A stretch of 40,502 nt of DNA from Oxalobacteraceae bacterium (GTDB lineage: Bacteria > Pseudomonadota > Gammaproteobacteria > Burkholderiales > Burkholderiaceae_D). Below the pieces are notes generated by a model that was not told the origin of the DNA, made no database searches, and worked only from the letters and a program-made list of their open reading frames with translations. A program made the translations under genes and the position numbers. Below, piece after piece: positions 2,438-32,316 of the stretch. Where the stretch lies: NCBI GenBank assembly GCA_023259175.1, contig JAHFQV010000028.1:1-40502 (forward strand), in the 5' to 3' direction. Numbering within the stretch: position 1 is the stretch's first letter; each line of letters opens with the position of its first letter.

Positions 2438-4027
2438 ATGAATCGCCGCCCTTACCCGCCTACCCGCGATGGACAAGATAAACCCGTCATCTGGACGGTT
2501 TCGATTTCGCGTCTATTCGACTTATTTCGCGACATCATGGTCGAGTTCGATGCCCGCGCTGAAATCGAACCCATTCACATGGGATTCGAAGAAGCCGCAC
2601 AAGCACTCCGCGAACGTCTGCAAACGGAGCATTGTGACGCGGTCATCGCGGCAGGCTCGAACGGCGCTTATCTCAAGAACCGACTACCCGTCCCGGTCGT
2701 GATCGCTAAAGCTAGTGGCTTTGATGTGATGCAAGCACTGGCGCGCGCGCGCAAAATTTCGCCTGAGATTGGCATCATCACCTATCAGGAAACGATGCCA
2801 GAATTGGCTGACTTTAAATCTACCTTTGGTTTCAAACTAGAACAAAGAACCTACGTCACCGAAGAAGATGCGAAAGCGCAAATTAAAGAACTCAAAGCGA
2901 TGGGAATCCGCGCCATTGTAGGTGCCGGTTTAATCAGTGATTTGGCCGACGAAGCTGGCTTAAACGGTATTTTTATGTACTCTGCCAGCTCGATCCGACA
3001 TGCTTTTGAAGATGCTCTCGAAATAGCCCGTCTAACGCAATTGGAAAGCACACGAGACCGAATACGCGTCCCCAAAGAGAGTTTGCGAACACGCTACAGC
3101 TTAAACGAATTGCGCGGCGACTCACAGCAAATGCAAGACTTACGTAAAACCATCACCCTGTACGCTCGCTCCCCCGCGACAGTGCTCATTCAAGGTGAAA
3201 CCGGGAGTGGCAAAGAATTGGTCGCGCAGGCCTTGCACCGAGAAAGCGCGCGCGCCAAACATAGTTTTGTCGCAGTCAACTGCGGTGCCATTGCGGAGTC
3301 TTTGCTCGAATCAGAATTATTTGGTTACGAAGAAGGTGCTTTTACTGGATCGCGTCGCGGTGGTCGCGCCGGTCTCTTTGAGAGCGCGCATCGTGGCACT
3401 TTATTTTTGGATGAAATTGGTGAAATGCCCTTAGCTTTGCAGTCCCGTTTATTACGTGTTTTAGAAGAACAGGAAATTACCCGGGTCGGCGGTGTCAGGC
3501 CCATCCCAATCGATGTACGTATTATTTGCGCGAGTCACTGTGACATTGAACAAGCGATGCGAAACCGTCAGTTTCGTCCCGATCTTTTTTTCCGTTTGGC
3601 GGTGTTACGATTACAAATTCCTGCCTTGCGCGAGCGTCCAGATGATTTGGTAATTCTTGCGCAATGGTGTCTCAAGCAAGCGCTGGCCGCTTTAGGCAGC
3701 TCCACTCCTCCGAATTTACACGCCGAAATGCAAGCCTGCGCTGCCACCTTGCAAACTTACAGCTGGCCAGGGAATGTGCGCGAACTCCGCAATGCAATGG
3801 AAAGAGTGGCGCTCCATTTATTGGCGACACCCCTGCAAGCAATCACGCCTACACTTTTGACCAAGCTGATTCCCGAACTCGGCGCGCCTGCATCCCATGA
3901 AACAACAAAAACCGAAGAATCCCTACACGATTTGATGGAAAAGTTCGGCAATAAGCAAAAAAATGTAGCAAAATACTTGGGTATCAGTCGCACTACGCTT
4001 TGGCGGCGACTACAAAAAATGGGCTAA
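2438..4027 (+). CDS. prpR: Sigma54-dependent propionate catabolism activator
   Basis: Senses 2-methylcitrate (known for the family) and activates prpBC with sigma54. The 529 residues show the order PrpR_N sensor (about 15-195), AAA+ core (about 225-460) and a Fis-type helix-turn-helix at the C-terminus ([18 protein letters not shown]). Walker A GETGSGKE is at 253-260, the sigma54 contact loop GAFTG at 300-304 and Walker [11 protein letters not shown] at about 320-329; an R-finger region follows. AGGA stands 8 nt before the ATG. It is transcribed away from prpB across a 225-bp control region. An 8- to 9-bp hairpin without a T-run follows the stop codon. Confidence 0.95.
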
Positions 4028-20685: not shown

Positions 20686-21918
20686 TCAATCGCTACGCAA
20701 AGCCGCAATCGGATCAAGCGAAGAAGCCTGCTTCGCCGGAAAAACACCAAAGCCCAAGCCAACGGCCACACACGCGGCCACTGCAGCGAACAAGATCAAA
20801 GGTGACCATGCCACCGACCACGAGGCCAAGCTAGCGATGCTATAGGCGGCAATCACCCCTAGCAATAAGCCGAACAAAGCGCCTGTCACAGCGATCACCA
20901 AAGCTTCCGCCAAAAATTGTTCGACCACATCACGTCGCCGTGCGCCCAAAGCCCGCTTGAGTCCGATTTCGCGCTTACGCTCAAGCACATTGGCCAGCAT
21001 AATGTTCATAATACCGATCCCACCTACCAACAGAGAAACGGCAGCGATCGAACTCATTACAATGGTAAAAATTTTCTGCGTTTGCTGATTTTGCCGATAC
21101 AATCCCATAGGCACAATCAGGGTCGTATCATCGGCACCGGCATGACGCTGAGCAATCAAGGCTTGTAACACGCGCGCAGCGGCATCAGGCGCGGCTTGCG
21201 GTGCTATCCGCAGGCTAATCCCATCGATTTCGTCTTCGATACGGGTAAATGAAAAACGTGCTCGCCCACTCTCCCAAGGCACAAATAAACGTTCATCATC
21301 CAAGCCCAATTTGATACCTTCAAATTCGCTTTTACCTGAAGTTCTATCGACTAAAACGCCGACCACTTCCAACCAAGTATGATTGAGTTTAATGCGCTCA
21401 CCCACAGGATCGGCATCCCCAAAAAGCGAATGTGCCAAACGCGCACCGAGCACACACACCGGTGCTAAACTCGCGCCATCTTCTGACTGAAACCAACGCC
21501 CTTGAGCGATCTGCAAACCGCCATGATCAGAATACGATTGCGAGACCGCATAAGCACGAGCGGGAATGATATTCATCCCATACACCAGCTGATCGACTTT
21601 GATTTCTTTTTTCATGGACACTGATTGCGCGCCCGGCACCACTAACATCGCTGCATTCGCGTCGGCTGCCGACAAGCCCAAAGAACGGGAACGAATTTCC
21701 TTCAATTTATCCGGTAGTATCGTCTTACTTTCGACCAGCACATTATTTAAACCAAGCTCGGCGACCAGACGCAAAGCTTCCCGTTTGCTGCCCTCGCCCA
21801 CCGCTAACATCGCGACAATGGCAGCCACACCAAAAATCATCCCTAACAAGGTTAATCCAGTGCGCAGTTTACGGCGCTGTAGCTCAACTATCGCCTCTAC
21901 AATCAGTGCGCGGTTCAT
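20686..21918 (-). CDS. MacB/FtsX-type ABC exporter permease
   Basis: A 410-residue inner-membrane protein with the standard layout: one N-terminal membrane helix (about 20-42), a periplasmic MacB core domain (about 45-275), and three C-terminal helices (about 280-310, 330-355, 365-392). The coupling segment ERKREIGLKRALGARRRDVVEQFL and the ending FPAKQASSLDPIAALR are typical of the family. It lacks a fused ATPase; that subunit is the separate gene at 25228-25899. The start overlaps the stop of the upstream adaptor by 4 nt. It is the last gene of a four-gene operon. Confidence 0.93.
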   Translation of the reverse strand: MNRALIVEAIVELQRRKLRTGLTLLGMIFGVAAIVAMLAVGEGSKREALRLVAELGLNNVLVESKTILPDKLKEIRSRSLGLSAADANAAMLVVPGAQSVSMKKEIKVDQLVYGMNIIPARAYAVSQSYSDHGGLQIAQGRWFQSEDGASLAPVCVLGARLAHSLFGDADPVGERIKLNHTWLEVVGVLVDRTSGKSEFEGIKLGLDDERLFVPWESGRARFSFTRIEDEIDGISLRIAPQAAPDAAARVLQALIAQRHAGADDTTLIVPMGLYRQNQQTQKIFTIVMSSIAAVSLLVGGIGIMNIMLANVLERKREIGLKRALGARRRDVVEQFLAEALVIAVTGALFGLLLGVIAAYSIASLASWSVAWSPLILFAAVAACVAVGLGFGVFPAKQASSLDPIAALRSD

Positions 21919-23180
21919 GCTTTCGTTTCCTTTTTTTCTGACACTAAAATAACCGCCATGCCTTCACGCAATCCCGATTTTATTTCGCTACGCACCGGTC
22001 CACGCAATCCTAGTTCGACTTTCTGTTGAGTGATTTTCGAACCTTCTTTGAGCATCACAAAAAACTGATTACCCTCCTGCTGCAAAGCCATATTCGGAAT
22101 CGTCAGCGCTTTATTCATGCTCAATAAACTGACCAGTCCCGTCACCGCTTGCCCGGGCTTTAGGGTGAATTTACGGACCAGGTCTTGACTGATTTTGGCT
22201 TCAAAATCGACATATTTAACCGGAGACTCGCGCGATTTTGTACTCGCCGTCTTGCCTACTTTACTCACAAGCAGCGCAAACTCTAGCTCAGTACCGGCCA
22301 AGCGCATTTTGATTTTCTGACCTTCTTTTAGGCCGAACGCCGCGCTTTCTGGAATACTAAACTTGGCAATTTGCTGCTCCAAATCCGGTAAAAAGCCAAA
22401 CTCATCGCCGGCCCACATATTCGCCCCAACCTGTGGCACCATCCCATCCCATCGCGGCCGCAACAAAAAAACCCCCTGATGTGGCGCTCTTAACTCTAGC
22501 GATGACAGACTTTGCTTTTGCTGTTTAATGTCTAAACTCACGCTTTCTTTTTGTGAATTAATCAGCGCTTGGTCAGCCCCAGTACGTGCGCCCAATTGTC
22601 CTTGTTTCCAATTGAGGTAGTGCTGCTTGTCGGTCAAAAATCCAATATCTGAAAAGGTATCGAGTATTTTATTTTTACTGTAGGCACCCACATCAACCGT
22701 GCCATAGCGTTGACTTAAACTGAGGTCATCACTTACTTTAAAATTTTCTGCGACCAGACCAAAGCGGCCAATCTCAGCATTCATTTTTAATTCAATTTCA
22801 TTGATTTCTTTACGCAAGAATTCGGCTTCCGATTGCGACAGACGCACCCGCGAAGGGGGTGAATCGAAGCTAGCGATCACCTGATCCTTCTCCACCAAAC
22901 TGCCTTCCGGAACCATAGAAACCAAAAACCGCTTATCCCAGCCAGTACCCGGCACTTGCAGTGGGGTACTCGCTGCCGCTTTGATCTCTCCATCGGCTAC
23001 CAAATCTTCGTTCCAATCTTTCACTTGAACAATCTCAACGGGCGCGTTCTCAGAACCGGTCTCCTTGCTGCAGGCACTCAACAATCCGAGCATCGCCAGC
23101 ATGCCAAACATACCCAGCGTCGTAAGGCTTTTAATCCGATAAATCCGATAAATCCGATAAATTCGATAATTCAGTTTCAT
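21915..23180 (-). CDS. Periplasmic adaptor lipoprotein (HlyD/MacA-like)
   Basis: A 421-residue adaptor. The signal peptide is odd: it begins with four tandem YRI tripeptides, then a hydrophobic run and lipobox LLSAC with C37. Family features follow: lipoyl-type segment (VSMVPEGSLVEKDQVIASFDSP, near 88-110), coiled coil (about 112-220), a second lipoyl half (LRAPHQGVFLLRPRWDGMVPQVG) and a beta-barrel. Its ATG overlaps the TGA of the larger adaptor gene upstream, and its own stop overlaps the permease start, so the proteins are probably made together. It would sit between the permease and an outer-membrane channel that is not encoded here. Confidence 0.88.
   Translation of the reverse strand: MKLNYRIYRIYRIYRIKSLTTLGMFGMLAMLGLLSACSKETGSENAPVEIVQVKDWNEDLVADGEIKAAASTPLQVPGTGWDKRFLVSMVPEGSLVEKDQVIASFDSPPSRVRLSQSEAEFLRKEINEIELKMNAEIGRFGLVAENFKVSDDLSLSQRYGTVDVGAYSKNKILDTFSDIGFLTDKQHYLNWKQGQLGARTGADQALINSQKESVSLDIKQQKQSLSSLELRAPHQGVFLLRPRWDGMVPQVGANMWAGDEFGFLPDLEQQIAKFSIPESAAFGLKEGQKIKMRLAGTELEFALLVSKVGKTASTKSRESPVKYVDFEAKISQDLVRKFTLKPGQAVTGLVSLLSMNKALTIPNMALQQEGNQFFVMLKEGSKITQQKVELGLRGPVRSEIKSGLREGMAVILVSEKKETKA
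23133..23168. repeat. 9-bp microsatellite (4 units) within the adaptor gene
   Basis: Four tandem copies of AATCCGATA (the last with one change) encode YRIYRIYRIYRI at the very N-terminus of the lipoprotein. The unit is a multiple of three, so slippage would vary the length of the signal-peptide n-region without breaking the frame. Confidence 0.9.
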
Positions 23181-25231
23181 CCCTTGGCTCCTGAAGTGCG
23201 GTTCTGCGTGGATTGCGCTTGTTTCGCCTTGACTTTATTTTCTTCGCTCACGGCGGAAGGAGAGAATTTAATTTGAACCGCTGCGCCAGGTTTAAAATTC
23301 TTAGGCGCTTCGACAAACTCCAATTCCACATCGCGCACGATGATGGGTTGATTGCGTGACTTTCCATGAAAAACGGAACCCATCGCAATCAGCTTTGCGC
23401 TCACCACCGTATTTGTACCAGGCAAGGTCACACTTGCGATTTGCCCCAGCTGTAGCATGCCCACCTGCGCTTCCGGCACTTTGGCTTGCACGAATAAATG
23501 CTCAGGGTCGGCAATACTCGCCACCATTCCACCCATAAAGATACGGCTGCCTGTGGCATATTTTTCGCCATCGTAACCCGCATTATGAATCACGGTACCG
23601 CCCTTTTTTGCGATGGCGGTTAATCCTTTCAATCCTTTTTCAAGCACATCAATATTATTTTTGATTTGCGCCATTTCAGATTGCGCACCACGATAATCAG
23701 CTAGACGTAAACGTTGCTGCGCTTCACGTTGACGTATCGCCAGTTGCAGCAATTGCGTATTGAGTTCACGATCCACCACCAATTTATCGTAATCAATTCG
23801 TTTAACCAACTCCTTAGGCATCGACGCTTTGCGGTCCGCCTTTTCAGCATTACTCTTGGCTTCACTCACGAGCAAATCAGCGACGCGTTCTGCCTCAGCT
23901 TGATCGAGCTTGAGTTTTTCGACCGCTCTTTGCTTTTCTTTGAACTGACTTTTGAGTGTGTCGAGATTGCGCTGTACATCATTCGCTTCGAAAATGGCAG
24001 CAACATCACCCGCCTTCAGCAAGCTACCTTCGGGCGCTAACATCACCAAGGTATATTCCCAAATATGCTGAATATTGGGCGGTGAAACCGCGACCGATTG
24101 GCGCGACAATACTTCTCCATCTAAAATAAGTTCCTTCTTGCTCGCCGCCAATCGCGCCAGCTCATGCTTAGCTTTTTGTTCGGGCTGCGCATGCACCTGT
24201 AATGCCGTGGTGGCGACTGGCGCAATCGAGACACTCATGCCATGCGCTAGTTTCAGGCCATGATTTTCAGGCAGCTTAATTTCGACTTTAAAATAATGCC
24301 CTGTTCCCCAAATTGCTCGCGGCTCGGGTGCGCCAGAAATACGCGTCACCTTGCCAGTCAATGATTGATTCACCAGCGCATCAAATTGCACAAGCACCGC
24401 ATCACCCTCTTTTATAAAGGGTCTATCCGCTTCCAAAATCCAAGCCTGTACATCAACACTGCCTTCGCCCATAATTTGACCAGCGAGCGCACCGACATGT
24501 GCATTTCCACCTTCATCCAAGCGTTTCCCGTTCCAGGCATCATAGCCATGGACCACCACACCGCTACGCTCCGCACGCACTTCCGCTTGCGCACTCTGCG
24601 CCTTCAAATAGGCCGCTTGAATTTGCAATTTTTTGAGCGCAAGTTCACTGTCCTCCCGCTTATGTGCTATCGACTCTTTGGAAGCATCGCTGGATTTTAG
24701 CTTGACTTCCAAATCCCGTTTTGCACGCGCCAGTTCCGCTTGGTATTTATCAAAATCCAAAGCAGAGATTTGAGATTTTGGAAGTGCCGCATCGACTTTG
24801 GCCTTAGCTAGTGCGGCTCTCGCCAGCCCCAAATTTCTTTCTGCGTCTATCGATTTCACTTCCAAATCAGCGACATCACGCAAACCACGTTCGCGCGTTT
24901 GCACCATCTCCAATTCAACCCGATCAAAATCAGCAGCGCCCTGAGAATCGACACGCAAAATGACCTCACCCTTTTTGACCGGTGTGCCTTCTTGTACAAA
25001 GTAACGCACCGCCACAGGCGATGAATTTGAAGGTGGTACGAAAATGGGTGTGGAATCGAGCGCCCTAGTCTCGCCTGCAAAAATCACGGGGCGCCGATAA
25101 CTGGTTTTTGCGTCACCGACTGGCGTCGCAGCTAAGGACGACATTCCGATTGAGACTAAGAAAAACGATGCCGTTAGATGAACCCACAGCGGCGAAAATT
25201 TTGTCGACTTTTTATTGGGTAGCTTCATCAT
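23177..25231 (-). CDS. Double-module periplasmic adaptor (two HlyD-like units in one chain)
   Basis: A 684-residue exported protein, nearly twice the usual adaptor length. A signal peptide (about 1-35, SSLAA/TP) is followed by module 1 (about 50-340): lipoyl half YFVQEGTPVKKGEVILRVDS, coiled coil 100-215, second half ERSGVVVHGYDAWNGKRLDE, barrel. Module 2 (about 365-665) repeats the order: LVMLAPEGSLLKAGDVAAIF, coiled coil 420-540, KKGGTVIHNAGYDGEKYATG, barrel. The GYDGEKYATG and GYDAWNGKRLDE motifs mark the matching places. It overlaps the ATPase stop (ATGA) and the lipoprotein adaptor start. The two modules are too diverged to be a recent duplication. The cargo of the exporter is unknown. 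Confidence 0.85.
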   Translation of the reverse strand: MMKLPNKKSTKFSPLWVHLTASFFLVSIGMSSLAATPVGDAKTSYRRPVIFAGETRALDSTPIFVPPSNSSPVAVRYFVQEGTPVKKGEVILRVDSQGAADFDRVELEMVQTRERGLRDVADLEVKSIDAERNLGLARAALAKAKVDAALPKSQISALDFDKYQAELARAKRDLEVKLKSSDASKESIAHKREDSELALKKLQIQAAYLKAQSAQAEVRAERSGVVVHGYDAWNGKRLDEGGNAHVGALAGQIMGEGSVDVQAWILEADRPFIKEGDAVLVQFDALVNQSLTGKVTRISGAPEPRAIWGTGHYFKVEIKLPENHGLKLAHGMSVSIAPVATTALQVHAQPEQKAKHELARLAASKKELILDGEVLSRQSVAVSPPNIQHIWEYTLVMLAPEGSLLKAGDVAAIFEANDVQRNLDTLKSQFKEKQRAVEKLKLDQAEAERVADLLVSEAKSNAEKADRKASMPKELVKRIDYDKLVVDRELNTQLLQLAIRQREAQQRLRLADYRGAQSEMAQIKNNIDVLEKGLKGLTAIAKKGGTVIHNAGYDGEKYATGSRIFMGGMVASIADPEHLFVQAKVPEAQVGMLQLGQIASVTLPGTNTVVSAKLIAMGSVFHGKSRNQPIIVRDVELEFVEAPKNFKPGAAVQIKFSPSAVSEENKVKAKQAQSTQNRTSGAKG

Positions 25232-25899
25232 TGCACGACCTCCTCCACTTTGCCATCCTTGAGATGAATCGTCCTTTGCGCCTGCGCAGCGATTTGCGCA
25301 TCATGCGTCACGAGTATCATGGTCTGCCCATTGGCGTGAAGTTCAGCGAGCAAAGCGAGCACGTCGGTCGCGCTCTTAGAGTCGAGATTGCCCGTCGGTT
25401 CATCGGCCAACAAGATGGCTGGCTGATTAAGCAGGGCCCGCGCAATCGCAGCCCTTTGTAACTGCCCACCCGACAGTTCGCCAGGCAAATGCGTCATCCT
25501 GTGTTCTAGTCCTATCCGACTAAGCAAATGTTTCGCACGCGACTCCGCTGTGGGGTCGACTTTTTCTGCATAACGCTGCGGCAATAGCACGTTTTCGAGT
25601 ACCGTTAAACGCGGCAACAAATGAAAGGATTGAAAAATGAAACCGATGCGGCGATTGCGCAAATCCGAGGAAGCATCATCATCCATGCTGGCGATTTCAT
25701 CATGTCCCAAATGGTAGGTCCCAGAGTCGGGCTTATCCAAAGCACCCAAGACATTGAGTAAAGTCGATTTACCCGAACCCGAAGGCCCCATGATGGCAAC
25801 AAACTCGCCTTCAGCGATGCTTAGATCCACCCCATCCAAGGCACGAATCTCATTCCCGCCTTGATGGTAAGTCTTGCGTATATTGCGAAGTTCTATCAT
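25228..25899 (-). CDS. MacB/LolD-type ABC transporter ATPase
   Basis: A 223-residue cytoplasmic ATPase, the first gene of the exporter operon. Walker A GPSGSGKST at 38-46, Q-loop Q90, signature LSGGQ at 142-146, Walker B ILLADEP with D166 and E167, and H-loop H199 are all intact. The family (MacB, LolD, FtsE) powers mechanotransmission exporters through a MacB-fold permease, which here is the gene at 20686-21918. The ATG at 25899 has the promoter TTGACA-N17-GATACT about 45 bp upstream. Confidence 0.94.
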   Translation of the reverse strand: MIELRNIRKTYHQGGNEIRALDGVDLSIAEGEFVAIMGPSGSGKSTLLNVLGALDKPDSGTYHLGHDEIASMDDDASSDLRNRRIGFIFQSFHLLPRLTVLENVLLPQRYAEKVDPTAESRAKHLLSRIGLEHRMTHLPGELSGGQLQRAAIARALLNQPAILLADEPTGNLDSKSATDVLALLAELHANGQTMILVTHDAQIAAQAQRTIHLKDGKVEEVVQ

Positions 25900-26000: not shown

Positions 26001-26030
26001 CGAAAAAAAAAGCGACCCATGGGTCGCTTT
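26001..26030 (-). terminator. Rho-independent terminator at the narK end
   Basis: On the minus strand an AAAGCGACCC / GGGTCGCTTT stem with almost no loop is followed by a long run of T. It is oriented to stop transcription coming from narK, about 365 bp past the narK stop codon, so the structured element at 26052-26395 lies within the narK transcript. Confidence 0.88.
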
Positions 26031-26051
26031 GAAAAGAAGAGAATTCGTTTC

Positions 26052-26395
26052 AACCTAGAAACGGCAGTTGACCGCTCAAGATCGTCTTTAAGTTTTTGAT
26101 TTGTCGACATATTGTTCGCTTTATGGTGATCACCATTTCGGTGAGTGCGCTACAGGCTTGATTGCACACTTTTCCGCCCATCTGGACTTTTGTGTTACTT
26201 CAGTGAAGTAACCTCCTCCTATCAACGTGGAGGTTGCGTCGGTGGAGCAGGGGTTTTGAGCAGCGTGCTGCTCACCTGCGTAACGATGATCCCCTGCGAG
26301 GGATCATTCCTACCCTATAGGGTAACGGGCGTCGCGCCTTGCCAGATGGGCGGAAAAATGCACACTCAAACCCGTCCAACCGCCGTTTCTAGGTT
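26052..26395 (-). ncRNA. Multi-hairpin structured element in the narK 3' UTR
   Basis: The outer stem pairs 26052-26070 with 26377-26395 (14 perfect pairs, one mismatch, four more). A second stem pairs 26170-26185 with 26342-26357 (16 perfect pairs). Inside it lie five perfect hairpins: 26194-26212, 26211-26234, 26258-26273 (within a longer GCAGG/CCTGC stem), 26286-26307 and 26311-26324. Between the outer and second stems is a 14-bp palindrome at 26123-26136. One arm abuts the narK stop codon and the whole ends before the terminator. There is no convincing ORF. It could be a regulatory or stand-alone RNA, or a transposon-derived element (MITE-like); I cannot name its family. Confidence 0.6.
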
Positions 26396-27777
26396 CAACA
26401 AGGCATTTCAGCGCCTTTTCTTGCATAAAACCACCAAGTCACTAACACGCAACTCACATAAAATCCGATGAAGGTATAGAGCGCCATATCGGGGCTACCA
26501 AAGAATTTAATCGAGGTACCAAAGCCTTGTGGAATAAAGAACCCACCGTAAGCCCCAATCGCACCTGAGAATCCCAACACCGCTGCAGATTCTTTCGCCG
26601 CGTCCAAGCGACTTTGACGCAAAGCGGCTTCACCTTTACCCGCGACCGCACGTTCACGTTCGGTTTGAAAGATGATAGGAATCATGCAGAAAGTCGAACC
26701 ATTACCTAAGCCGGTCAAAATAAACATGCCGATGAAGGAGCGTAAAAATGTTTGGAATTGATGTGCATGCAGCGCCGGCAAGATACCGAAGACGATCGTC
26801 AGCGCCATCGCAATAAATGCCCAGAGGGTGAGTCGTGCGCCGCCAATTTTGTCGGACAGCATCCCACCCACAGGACGTGCCAGTGCGCCGGCCAAAGGCC
26901 CCAAGAAAGCAAATTGAGCGACTTCCACTTCGGGGAACTGCGCCTTAATCAACATGGCGAATGCGGCAGAAAATCCGATGAATGAACCGAAGGTACCGAT
27001 ATACAGATAGCACATCAGCCAATTATGTTTGCGCTTAAAAATGATCGCCTGATCGGAAAATGAAGCTTGTGCAGAAGCGATATCATTCATACCGAACCAA
27101 GCAGCGAGCGTCGCGGCGAGGATGAAGGGCACCCAAATAAATCCCGCATTCGCCAACCAAAAAGTTTGATCCGCATTGGTTTTGAGATTGTGAAACAAAT
27201 AGCCGTCGCCAGAAATCGATGCGCCGAAAACGGCCGAAGCGATCACCACAGGAGTGACAAACTGAACCAAAGAAACCCCCAAATTTCCTATCCCTGCATT
27301 CATCCCCGTCGCGTATCCCTTATGCGATTTCGGGAAAAAGAAACTGATGTTGGACATACTCGAACTAAAATTTCCACCCCCAAGCCCACACAACAAGGCC
27401 AGTATCAAGAGCGTAGAATAGCTGGTCGTAGGATCTTGCAACGCATAACCCATGCCCAATGCAGGAATTAGCAAACTCGCGGTGGACAAGGCGGTAAATT
27501 TACGGCCACCAAAAACTGGCACCAAGAAAGAATAAAAAATACGCAAGGTTGCACCAGAAAGCGCGGGCAAAGCCGTCAGAAAAAATAACTGGTCTTTGGT
27601 GAATTTAAATCCAGCCTTATCTAAATTTGCTGCGACCACACTCCACAGCATCCAAACCGAAAATGCCAACATCAAACAAGGAATCGAAATCCACAAATTC
27701 CGGTTCGCGATGGCCCCGCCTTCTTTTTCCCAGAATGATTTGTCTTCCGGCTCCCAATGGCTTAGTACTTGGCTCAT
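26395..27777 (-). CDS. narK: Nitrate/nitrite transporter, NarK family
   Basis: A 460-residue major-facilitator protein with about 12 membrane helices. Both nitrate-porter signatures are visible: GLGGGNFSSSMSNISFFFPK followed by GYATGMNAGIGNLG, and GLGNGSTFCMIPIIF; the arginine helices (ATLRIFYSF, GALARPVGGMLSDK) are also present. Family knowledge supports nitrate uptake and/or nitrate-nitrite exchange across the inner membrane. The frame opens at a TTG (27793-27795), but ATG 27775-27777 is chosen because GAGGAGA sits 7 nt before it. It is the last gene of the nar-related minus-strand series. An 11-bp direct repeat ATTAAACGATT (27795-27805 and 27811-27821) lies just upstream; its role is unknown. 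Confidence 0.93.
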   Translation of the reverse strand: MSQVLSHWEPEDKSFWEKEGGAIANRNLWISIPCLMLAFSVWMLWSVVAANLDKAGFKFTKDQLFFLTALPALSGATLRIFYSFLVPVFGGRKFTALSTASLLIPALGMGYALQDPTTSYSTLLILALLCGLGGGNFSSSMSNISFFFPKSHKGYATGMNAGIGNLGVSLVQFVTPVVIASAVFGASISGDGYLFHNLKTNADQTFWLANAGFIWVPFILAATLAAWFGMNDIASAQASFSDQAIIFKRKHNWLMCYLYIGTFGSFIGFSAAFAMLIKAQFPEVEVAQFAFLGPLAGALARPVGGMLSDKIGGARLTLWAFIAMALTIVFGILPALHAHQFQTFLRSFIGMFILTGLGNGSTFCMIPIIFQTERERAVAGKGEAALRQSRLDAAKESAAVLGFSGAIGAYGGFFIPQGFGTSIKFFGSPDMALYTFIGFYVSCVLVTWWFYARKGAEMPC

Positions 27778-27903
27778 GATTTTCTCCTCGCGCAATTAAA
27801 CGATTACCTGATTAAACGATTGTCTATTCTCAGATTACGCGCATCGTCAGCGCTTGAAAATTCGTCCACAGGCTAATGCGCCTATTGCAAAAGTAGGAGG
27901 TGC

Positions 27904-31452: not shown

Positions 31453-32316
31453 CTACTTCACACACTCATTATCGCTCGAAAAACAACTTGCCAACAATGG
31501 GCAAACCATGGGCAAGAAACTATCGGTTCGATCCGAATACGCCAGCAGTGCACCTTCTGTCATATCGAAATACCAGCCGTGCAGCGCCAGTTCGCCGCTT
31601 TGTTCCCGTTCGGCCACCCAGGGAAAACTGCGCAAATTATTCAAAGACAAAATAATCGCACCCAGCTCACAAGCCCGGTTTTGTGATGCGACCGAACAGC
31701 TTGCCAGTTGCTGCAAAACTTGCTGCTTCACCGGTTCGACGATGCGCATCCAACGCCCGACAAAATCAATTTGGCGGCTCGGCGTATAGCCTTGCATCAA
31801 GGCCCGAATGCCGCCACATTTTTCATATCCCATGACGATGATGCGCTGCACTTTCAGCGCTTCCACCGCAAACTGTATGGCGGCGCTAACCCCCTGCTGA
31901 TGTCCTGCTTCATTGCAGGGCGGCACCAGGTTGGCGATATTGCGCACAACAAAAATATCCCCAGGATCACAGTCTAATAACAAAGCAGGATCAACCCGCG
32001 AATCGCAACAACCTATCAACAGGGTAGTCGGGTTTTGCCCGTTATTCAGTTTGTCATAGAGCGGCGTTTCGCCGGAAAAATATTTGGTCTGAAAACGTTG
32101 AAAACCTTCAATAAATTGGTGAATATTTTTAACCGAGATTTTCCATTAGGGTTTGAGATGATGACGGATGAGTTTGCGAGACAGTTTTGCATGATTTTAT
32201 TTTCTCATAGCGAGCTATGGGAAAATAAAATCATGCGGAAATGGCCGCAAAATCGCCGTCAGCACTCAAAAAGCACCGAAGGTGCGCCTAATGGAAAATC
32301 TCGGTTTAACTTCCAT
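31453..32316 (-). pseudogene. Beta-carbonic anhydrase gene split by a MITE
   Basis: ATG 32314-32316 has a strong GGAGAAG site and reads M-E-V-K; then the MITE (32133-32304) interrupts, and translation would stop after about 16 residues inside it. Removing the MITE and one TTTAA copy restores an unbroken frame: MEVKNIHQFIEGFQRFQTKY and onward, 228 residues. The 3' part keeps the C-C-D-S-R zinc motif and the second cysteine (KCGG), but the zinc-ligand histidine of G-H-x-x-C is tyrosine (GYEKCGG, CAT to TAT). The remaining 3' frame has no normal start before a TTG at 32017-32019. It was probably an interconverter of CO2 and bicarbonate; it now looks non-functional. Its stop is 14 bp before narX. 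Confidence 0.85.
32133..32304. mobile_element. MITE copy 2 (172 bp), inserted in the carbonic anhydrase gene
   Basis: Perfect 18-bp terminal inverted repeats CCGAGATTTTCCATTAGG at both ends, flanked by TTTAA on each side (32128-32132 and 32305-32309). A central hairpin pairs 32189-32210 with 32215-32236, one mismatch, loop CGAG. It has no coding capacity. The same element, shortened and reversed, is at 7277-7401. The duplicated TTTAA is confirmed by frame restoration of the host gene when one copy is removed. The transposase family that moves it is not known to me. Confidence 0.9.

Follow-up and report, generated by a model that had tools for sequence, protein, structure and literature searches.

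A probable IS1380-type MITE carrying a conserved, strand-specific RNA fold beside narK in Undibacterium

Several kinds of bacterial repeat combine mobility with a folded transcript. The bcr1, Correia/NEMIS and ERIC repeats are mobile or repeated intergenic elements whose transcripts fold, and HEARO and group II introns are structured RNAs tied to mobile DNA. MITEs, for their part, are usually treated as decaying deletion products. A general account of MITEs derived from insertion sequences (IS) is given in PMC10969869, which also names bcr1, Correia/NEMIS and ERIC. REP palindromes, as PMC3733652 describes them, are hairpins of 20–40 bp with a GTAG or CGTC tag at one end, and have RAYT transposases.

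The element considered here resembles the IS of the IS1380 family and IS-derived MITEs in its inverted CC..GG ends, its short AT-rich duplications, its non-coding, multi-copy nature and, apparently, its mobilisation in trans. It differs from such MITEs in having an RNA arm with strand-specific covariation that extends across a bacterial class, and in having ends that would also serve as the closing helix of the RNA. Like bcr1, Correia/NEMIS and ERIC, it is a mobile, repeated, intergenic sequence whose transcripts are predicted to fold, but those repeats, compared by description, have other hosts and other ends, and none is an Rfam match. With the REP/RAYT palindromes it has in common a palindromic intergenic repeat in Proteobacteria and a GTAG motif; that identification was rejected, the element being 340 bp long (ten times longer) with a three-way junction, CC..GG inverted ends and 5-bp duplications. 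Readings of the element as retron-like or attC-like were weighed and set aside.

The earlier note on this DNA had proposed a search for HEARO/omega-RNA, group II intron and OLE-type models. None of these is supported: across the window (the whole stretch of DNA analysed, 40,502 nucleotides) no match to an Rfam 15 family attains the gathering score, and the element differs from all three in having no internal protein gene and in having DDE-type duplications. At a relaxed threshold, eight loci gave one Rfam match (E 4.4), and sixteen loci gave three sub-threshold matches, all to microRNA families, one of them over a copy of the element (28.2 bits, against a gathering score of 137). I found no description of the element family in Rfam 15 or in the open-licence literature searched, including PMC10969869, PMC6053426, PMC3110155, PMC3733652 and PMC2267715, and relative to these it appears to be new.

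The features of the locus are collected in Table 1. The earlier note had described nested long stems and perfect hairpins filling the narK 3' region from 26052 to 26395, with one arm touching the narK stop codon, a terminator beyond and no gene to explain them. The stems are indeed there (outer arms 26049–26070 and 26377–26398, 91% complementary; inner arms 26152–26185 and 26342–26375, 82% complementary at the DNA level), as are several perfect hairpins, and the inner stem is longer on the RNA strand than was first noted, because G-U pairs bridge its gaps. A real element underlies the span, with borders that had to be corrected to those of Table 1 and with 5 bp of duplicated target at either side. 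Read along the minus strand, the narK stop comes first, then the element and then the terminator-like hairpin; the stop codon lies within the right-hand TTCAA copy, so that the insertion kept it. The sole open reading frame listed inside the element (26145–26471, plus strand, 108 aa) extends into narK on the antisense strand and is implausible as a gene.

Table 1. Features of the element and its surroundings (positions in the window)
Feature	Position	Strand	Remarks
Element, long form, 340 bp	26054..26393	minus (folded strand)	homology of dispersed copies ends here; covariance model match 188.9 bits, full length
Target duplication TTCAA, left copy, 5 bp	26049..26053		sequence
Target duplication TTCAA, right copy, 5 bp	26394..26398		contains narK stop codon (26397-26395, minus)
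narK, NarK-family nitrate/nitrite transporter	26395..27795	minus, reading towards element	TIGR00886, 336 bits
ABC-transporter ATPase gene, neighbour	25228-25899	minus	
Terminator-like hairpin with T tail	26009..26030	minus	downstream of element on narK strand
P1 5' strand (predicted)	26376..26393	minus	one inverted transposon end
P1 3' strand (predicted)	26054..26071	minus	other inverted end; plus strand CCTAGAAACGGCAGTTGA
P2 5' strand (predicted)	26366..26375	minus	
P2 3' strand (predicted)	26152..26161	minus	
P3 5' strand (predicted)	26343..26364	minus	
P3 3' strand (predicted)	26163..26184	minus	
Apical domain	26185..26342	minus	enlarged here; mostly a short tandem G.A module in other copies
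Extra internal stretch	26242..26329	minus	three hairpins (26257-26274, 26286-26307, 26311-26324); missing from 253-bp copies
Junction hairpin UCACC/GGUGA	26130..26144	minus	76 bases from left end
Conserved junction strand GUAGCG	26148..26153	minus	
Conserved strand AGCGGUCAAC	26067..26076	minus	foot of P1

BLAST finds the element in 40 separate places of its own 4.03-Mb Undibacterium draft genome, a count that includes fragments and may count twice the halves that lie at contig ends. A strict script found both ends in 21 own-genome copies, 12 of them with perfect 5-bp duplications, which differ in sequence. Four own copies, 253 bp long, are 96–100% identical to the window copy over its left 188–199 bases, and because these near-identical copies lack the stretch 26242–26329, the window copy is a long form. 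That stretch resembles a hairpin pair in other long hairpins of the genus (L033–L038), and in a sister genome (L021) it occurs at 97% identity within another copy.

Complete copies are bounded by inverted CC...GG ends, and their target reads WTNAW. Once repeated loci and matches lacking a recognisable partner end had been removed, the loci fetched gave 61 paired-end elements, most of them 232–350 bp in length and one 420 bp. Their left flanks have T at position 2 in 60 cases and A at position 4 in all 61. The duplications are perfect in 33 and imperfect in 28, with at least four of the five bases matching in 51. Because WTNAW is itself palindromic, the middle base was tested: it is the same on both sides in 44 of the 61, as against 20.6 expected by permutation, and complementary in 5. 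The flanking repeats are real target duplications, many of them worn. The element is short, non-coding and multi-copy, with inverted ends and target duplications, and on the evidence of its sequence is a MITE-type mobile element.

A pattern scan of named contigs found 45 loci, distributed among Undibacterium, Collimonas, Massilia, other Oxalobacteraceae/Burkholderiales bins and one gammaproteobacterial bin. The window's own genus is Undibacterium, judging by shared flanks, because a genome of the same genus (G009, locus L026) has a copy whose flanks are those of a copy in U. seohonense (L132). A covariance model, which can be run on any genome, was built from 46 copies (53 copies of at most 255 bp minus seven near-duplicates). 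Within the family it matches 67 of 195 genomes, spread over 22 of 44 genera, and in a sample of 369 genomes from the class it matches 44, in 37 of 272 genera. These counts are upper bounds for the 235-nt element, because some of the weaker matches are shorter hairpins of another kind. Viral contigs gave no match to a core pattern of the element, and plasmids no DNA match to two element queries.

The minus strand of the element is predicted to form a three-way-junction RNA. In this model P1 is made of the two element ends paired with each other, P2 and P3 together make up the long arm, and the junction is built from the GUAGCG strand, the UCACC/GGUGA hairpin and the AGCGGUCAAC strand. The apical module reads, antiparallel, C-G, G.A, A.G, C-G, G.A, A.G, C-G, G.A. 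In the 73 sequences tabulated, a table in which a regular-expression anchor is misplaced in several rows and from which nine further sequences are missing, having not been found, the second tandem shows G.A in 65 and A.G in 58, while the first is Watson-Crick in some of the sequences. A similar apical tandem-G.A module is present in several hairpin repeats that have other ends and lack the junction arm (L208, L237, L246–L251, L256, L257), and TA seems to flank L233, L236 and L237. There are also forms of 130–145 nt (L242, L243, L244, L245, L254) that keep the ends and the junction and lack P3; in L243 and L244 the deletion falls between repeated GTGTGCA letters.

Folded as RNA, the minus strand from 26054 to 26393 reaches -156.0 kcal/mol, as compared to -98.1 ± 5.0 for shuffled sequences (z -11.5, 0 of 100 as good); with flanks the z-score is -10.7 for the minus strand and -8.5 for the plus strand. 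Covariation was assessed in two alignments: A1, a MAFFT alignment of the 46 copies, and A3, in which 74 matches from the 73 loci given (23 rows from outside the family) were aligned to the model, a procedure that favours the model structure. RNAalifold places 59 pairs in A1, of which 35 show a double compensatory change, and 98.3% of the cells are paired, against 86.8% in shuffles. In A3, aligned as it is to the model, pairing is retained in 96.2% of the cells, and double compensatory changes occur in 52 of the 59 pairs; its covariation score is 0.606, as against 0.211 when shuffled and 0.08–0.13 when slid. P2 and P3 differ greatly among lineages yet remain paired (L199, L205, L213, L216). Compensatory covariation beyond that of shuffles is the mark of a structured non-coding RNA, and it is what was found here. 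It appears from these alignments that what distantly related bacteria conserve is the shape of the fold and not its sequence. The earlier note's suggestion of a structured RNA or a transposon-derived RNA element turns out to be right on both counts, given the covariation and the dispersed copies with duplications.

The pairing might nevertheless be no more than a by-product of inverted ends and palindrome-prone DNA, with no RNA selected. Such a plain MITE would be mobile, multi-copy and non-coding, intergenic here and equipped with IS-derived ends, as the element is, and covariation in P1 taken by itself could arise if both ends track the transposase. P2 and P3, however, covary though they are not transposon ends. 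The earlier note had named dispersed copies with target duplications and no covariation as the signature of a plain MITE: the dispersed copies with 5-bp duplications are present, but covariation, far from absent, is strong and strand-specific. DNA palindromes should be symmetric between strands, yet A1 has 53 G-U cells against 0 A-C cells in P2, and for P3 the figures are 182 and 4. Over P1–P3 that alignment holds 1909 Watson-Crick, 312 G-U, 6 A-C and 25 other cells and 2 gaps, and it is because G-U so far exceeds A-C in this 46-copy set that one strand appears to be under selection. Some pairs are nearly always G-U. With four mostly-G-U pairs removed, the count is still 145 to 6; three of the four come from the repeated GTGTGCA, and a duplication could have produced them. 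In the 23 rows from other families there are 926 Watson-Crick, 146 G-U, 12 A-C and 43 other cells. Since a prediction made on the minus strand could bias such counts, each strand was folded separately. The consensus energies for the minus and plus strands are -84.6 and -40.0 in A1, -87.5 and -39.8 when the A3 sequences are re-aligned without the model, and -85.6 and -55.9 in the 23 far rows, and the plus-strand structures too hold more A-C than G-U cells. With the opposite strand folding far worse and the unpaired strands conserved, pairing as a mere by-product is highly improbable.

The simplest reading of the selected strand is RNA, though it could be single-stranded DNA, exposed for example in replication or transposition. 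Folded single strands are used by other mobile DNAs, and the minus strand folds well under DNA parameters also (z -9.0). The share of G-U (312 of 2221 standard pairs in A1), with some pairs almost always G-U, suits RNA better, and the IS1380-type ends and 5-bp duplications point to double-strand transposition, which makes the single-stranded DNA reading unlikely.

The CC ends and the 5-bp AT-rich duplications pointed, I presumed, to IS1380. Among 15 IS1380 loci fetched, seven have clear ends, six of these with a perfect 5-bp duplication and one with four of five bases, and all seven have T at position 2 and A at position 4; other IS1380 copies have 4-bp duplications. Ends of the element type are found on five IS (L299, L294, L308, L310, L312), hereafter partners, whose ends match those of the element in 13–17 of 17 letters, as compared to 8–12 for ten other IS1380 ends; L306, L309 and L311 gave no convincing end pair. 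The IS at L299 matches a common element end in 17 of 17 letters and has no duplication, that at L308 (1687 bp) has the perfect duplication ATGAT, and that at L310 has the ends CCTAGAAACCGCAGTT and no duplication. The IS at L294 is flanked by TTCAA/TTGAA (4 of 5), and a second end pair 39 bp further out scores higher (16 of 16, CTAG duplication). Inverted repeats of about 39 bp or more, with CTAG outermost (L294:1241–1283 and 2969–3011), flank this IS, as if it lay centrally in a palindrome. The transposases of L299 and L294 are 46% identical. Partner transposase matches PF13701 at 74 bits, above the Pfam cut-off of 34.7; two partner scores against NF033539, 143 and 131 bits, fall below the NCBIfam IS1380 cut-off of 180. 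The CC..GG ends and 4–5-bp duplications of IS1380 are present in the partner.

The partner is rare. A search with the L299 and L294 transposases found the partner clade in 1 of 195 genomes of the family and 5 of 369 of the class, and it was confirmed in none of the viral contigs. Two of the five class genomes are also on the list of RNA matches, too few for a test of co-occurrence, and in one of them, G890, the locus (L237) is a shorter hairpin of another kind. PF13701 matches at 1e-6 occur in 13 of 49 genomes chosen for strong RNA matches, and it was among these that the IS at L299 and L294 came to light; the figure is not usable as a test of enrichment, as samples and thresholds differ. In the window's own draft genome no PF13701 match passed and no partner-clade transposase was found, despite the near-identical copies, which suggest recent movement. 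A PF13701 search of 37 genomes likewise turned up nothing in the own genome, and the genus yielded fragments only (best in G007, 5e-30). A further search, of 399 genomes of the order, found none in the listed genomes of the same genus or family, and no end-like singleton in the own genome or in the complete genome G014 lay at a matching transposase.

An autonomous partner does share a genome with the element in G514 and in G764, and the two also occur together on a plasmid. The plasmid search gave a single record, Polaromonas sp. P1-6, with a partner transposase, UUZ66186.1, that is 45% identical. Its IS is 1630 bp long and has a perfect duplication, TTAAA; among the other intact partners only the IS at L308 has a perfect one. 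Its right end, CCTAGAAACGGCAGTT, is identical to the first 16 letters of the window element. At a distance of 357 bp from this IS there is a copy of the element that scores 177.8 bits and has the flanks TTCAT and TTAAT. With an annotated IS and the element together on one plasmid, a DDE transposon's use of RNA becomes a question that can be asked directly. An annotated hypothetical protein, UUZ66187.1 (L312:3412–3591, CP087967.1), overlies the element at 3354–3587; it is probably not a real gene, and gives reason for caution in annotating such copies.

In the Polaromonas IS a hairpin TCACC-AA-ATG-GGTGA, 76 bases from the left end, has the annotated start codon in its loop. An exact TCACC..GGTGA is found in 32 of the 61 elements, at an offset of 76 in 25, 75 in 6 and 77 in 1. 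From the shared ends and the offset of this hairpin, the element resembles the left end plus the right tip of the IS, with the RNA arm replacing the gene. One may imagine that the RNA acts in trans, regulating translation of the partner transposase through the leader and start-codon hairpin it has in common with the IS, all the more as selection acts on the strand that is antisense to the transposase gene. From the end to the hairpin, however, the Polaromonas element and IS agree in only 21 of 59 letters (a value reached by 122 of 5000 shuffles), so that extended antisense pairing between element and leader would be weak. P2 and P3 would be unnecessary for such regulation, and 29 of the 61 elements have lost the hairpin or have it in imperfect form. 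I regard regulation in trans as distinctly unlikely.

The RNA is not confined to one type of end. L253:2755–2987 (same genus, G014) carries it with 160.5 bits and L206 with 138.1 bits, and the ends of these two elements, CCCAGATTTTCCATTGG and CCGAGAATTTTCATTAG, are close to those of another IS1380 branch (L268, L282); both have perfect TTTAA duplications. That one RNA core occurs with two kinds of IS1380 end speaks more strongly than any other observation for an RNA that may be kept for its own sake.

Taken together, these comparisons make it probable, though well short of certain, that the element is a non-autonomous IS1380-type MITE carrying a conserved, selected RNA fold. An IS1380-type transposase acting in trans would cut at the CC ends and insert with a 5-bp stagger, in this case into TTCAA (TTGAA on the narK strand) at the narK stop, leaving the stop intact. 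Transcripts of the narK strand would then contain the element, and its paired ends (P1) would close the insertion off as one three-way-junction domain. The fold would be kept because the element needs it, as its recurrence on two different end types suggests, either to render insertions in transcripts harmless or for transposition and its control. That compensatory changes should preserve a fold through much of a bacterial class implies some function of the RNA, for the element or for its host, but to assign it any single specific job would be tentative at best. A bolder proposal, speculative and rather improbable, is that the RNA is the lasting unit, having moved between IS1380 end types and having its apical G.A module in common with hairpin repeats whose ends differ, and that the fold is active in transposition or its control, making this an RNA-dependent DDE transposon.

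A role closer to the host gene may also be considered. The earlier note had raised control of narK message stability, or an independent RNA, and a cis-acting 3' UTR element recruited for narK would be placed as this one is, in the narK sense between the stop and the terminator-like hairpin. Copies adjoin many other genes, however, and recruitment for narK is very unlikely. Of 85 loci, 56 have an antisense gene on the 5' side of the RNA and 29 a sense gene, and this gene often starts within a few bases of the element, but as these orientations come from crude open reading frame calls at 86 of 107 loci with flanks, they are not leaned on.

The window holds a second IS1380-type MITE, 172 bp long (32133–32304), whose ends CCGAGATTTTCCATTAGG are of the other IS1380 branch, with the duplication TTAAA at 32128–32132 and 32305–32309. 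It has a 30-nt central hairpin, and the RNA model finds only a trace match there (17.1 bits). Elsewhere in the window, at 23133–23169, a 9-bp tandem repeat is present four times at the start of the open reading frame 21915–23180 and gives YRIYRIYRI in the signal region.
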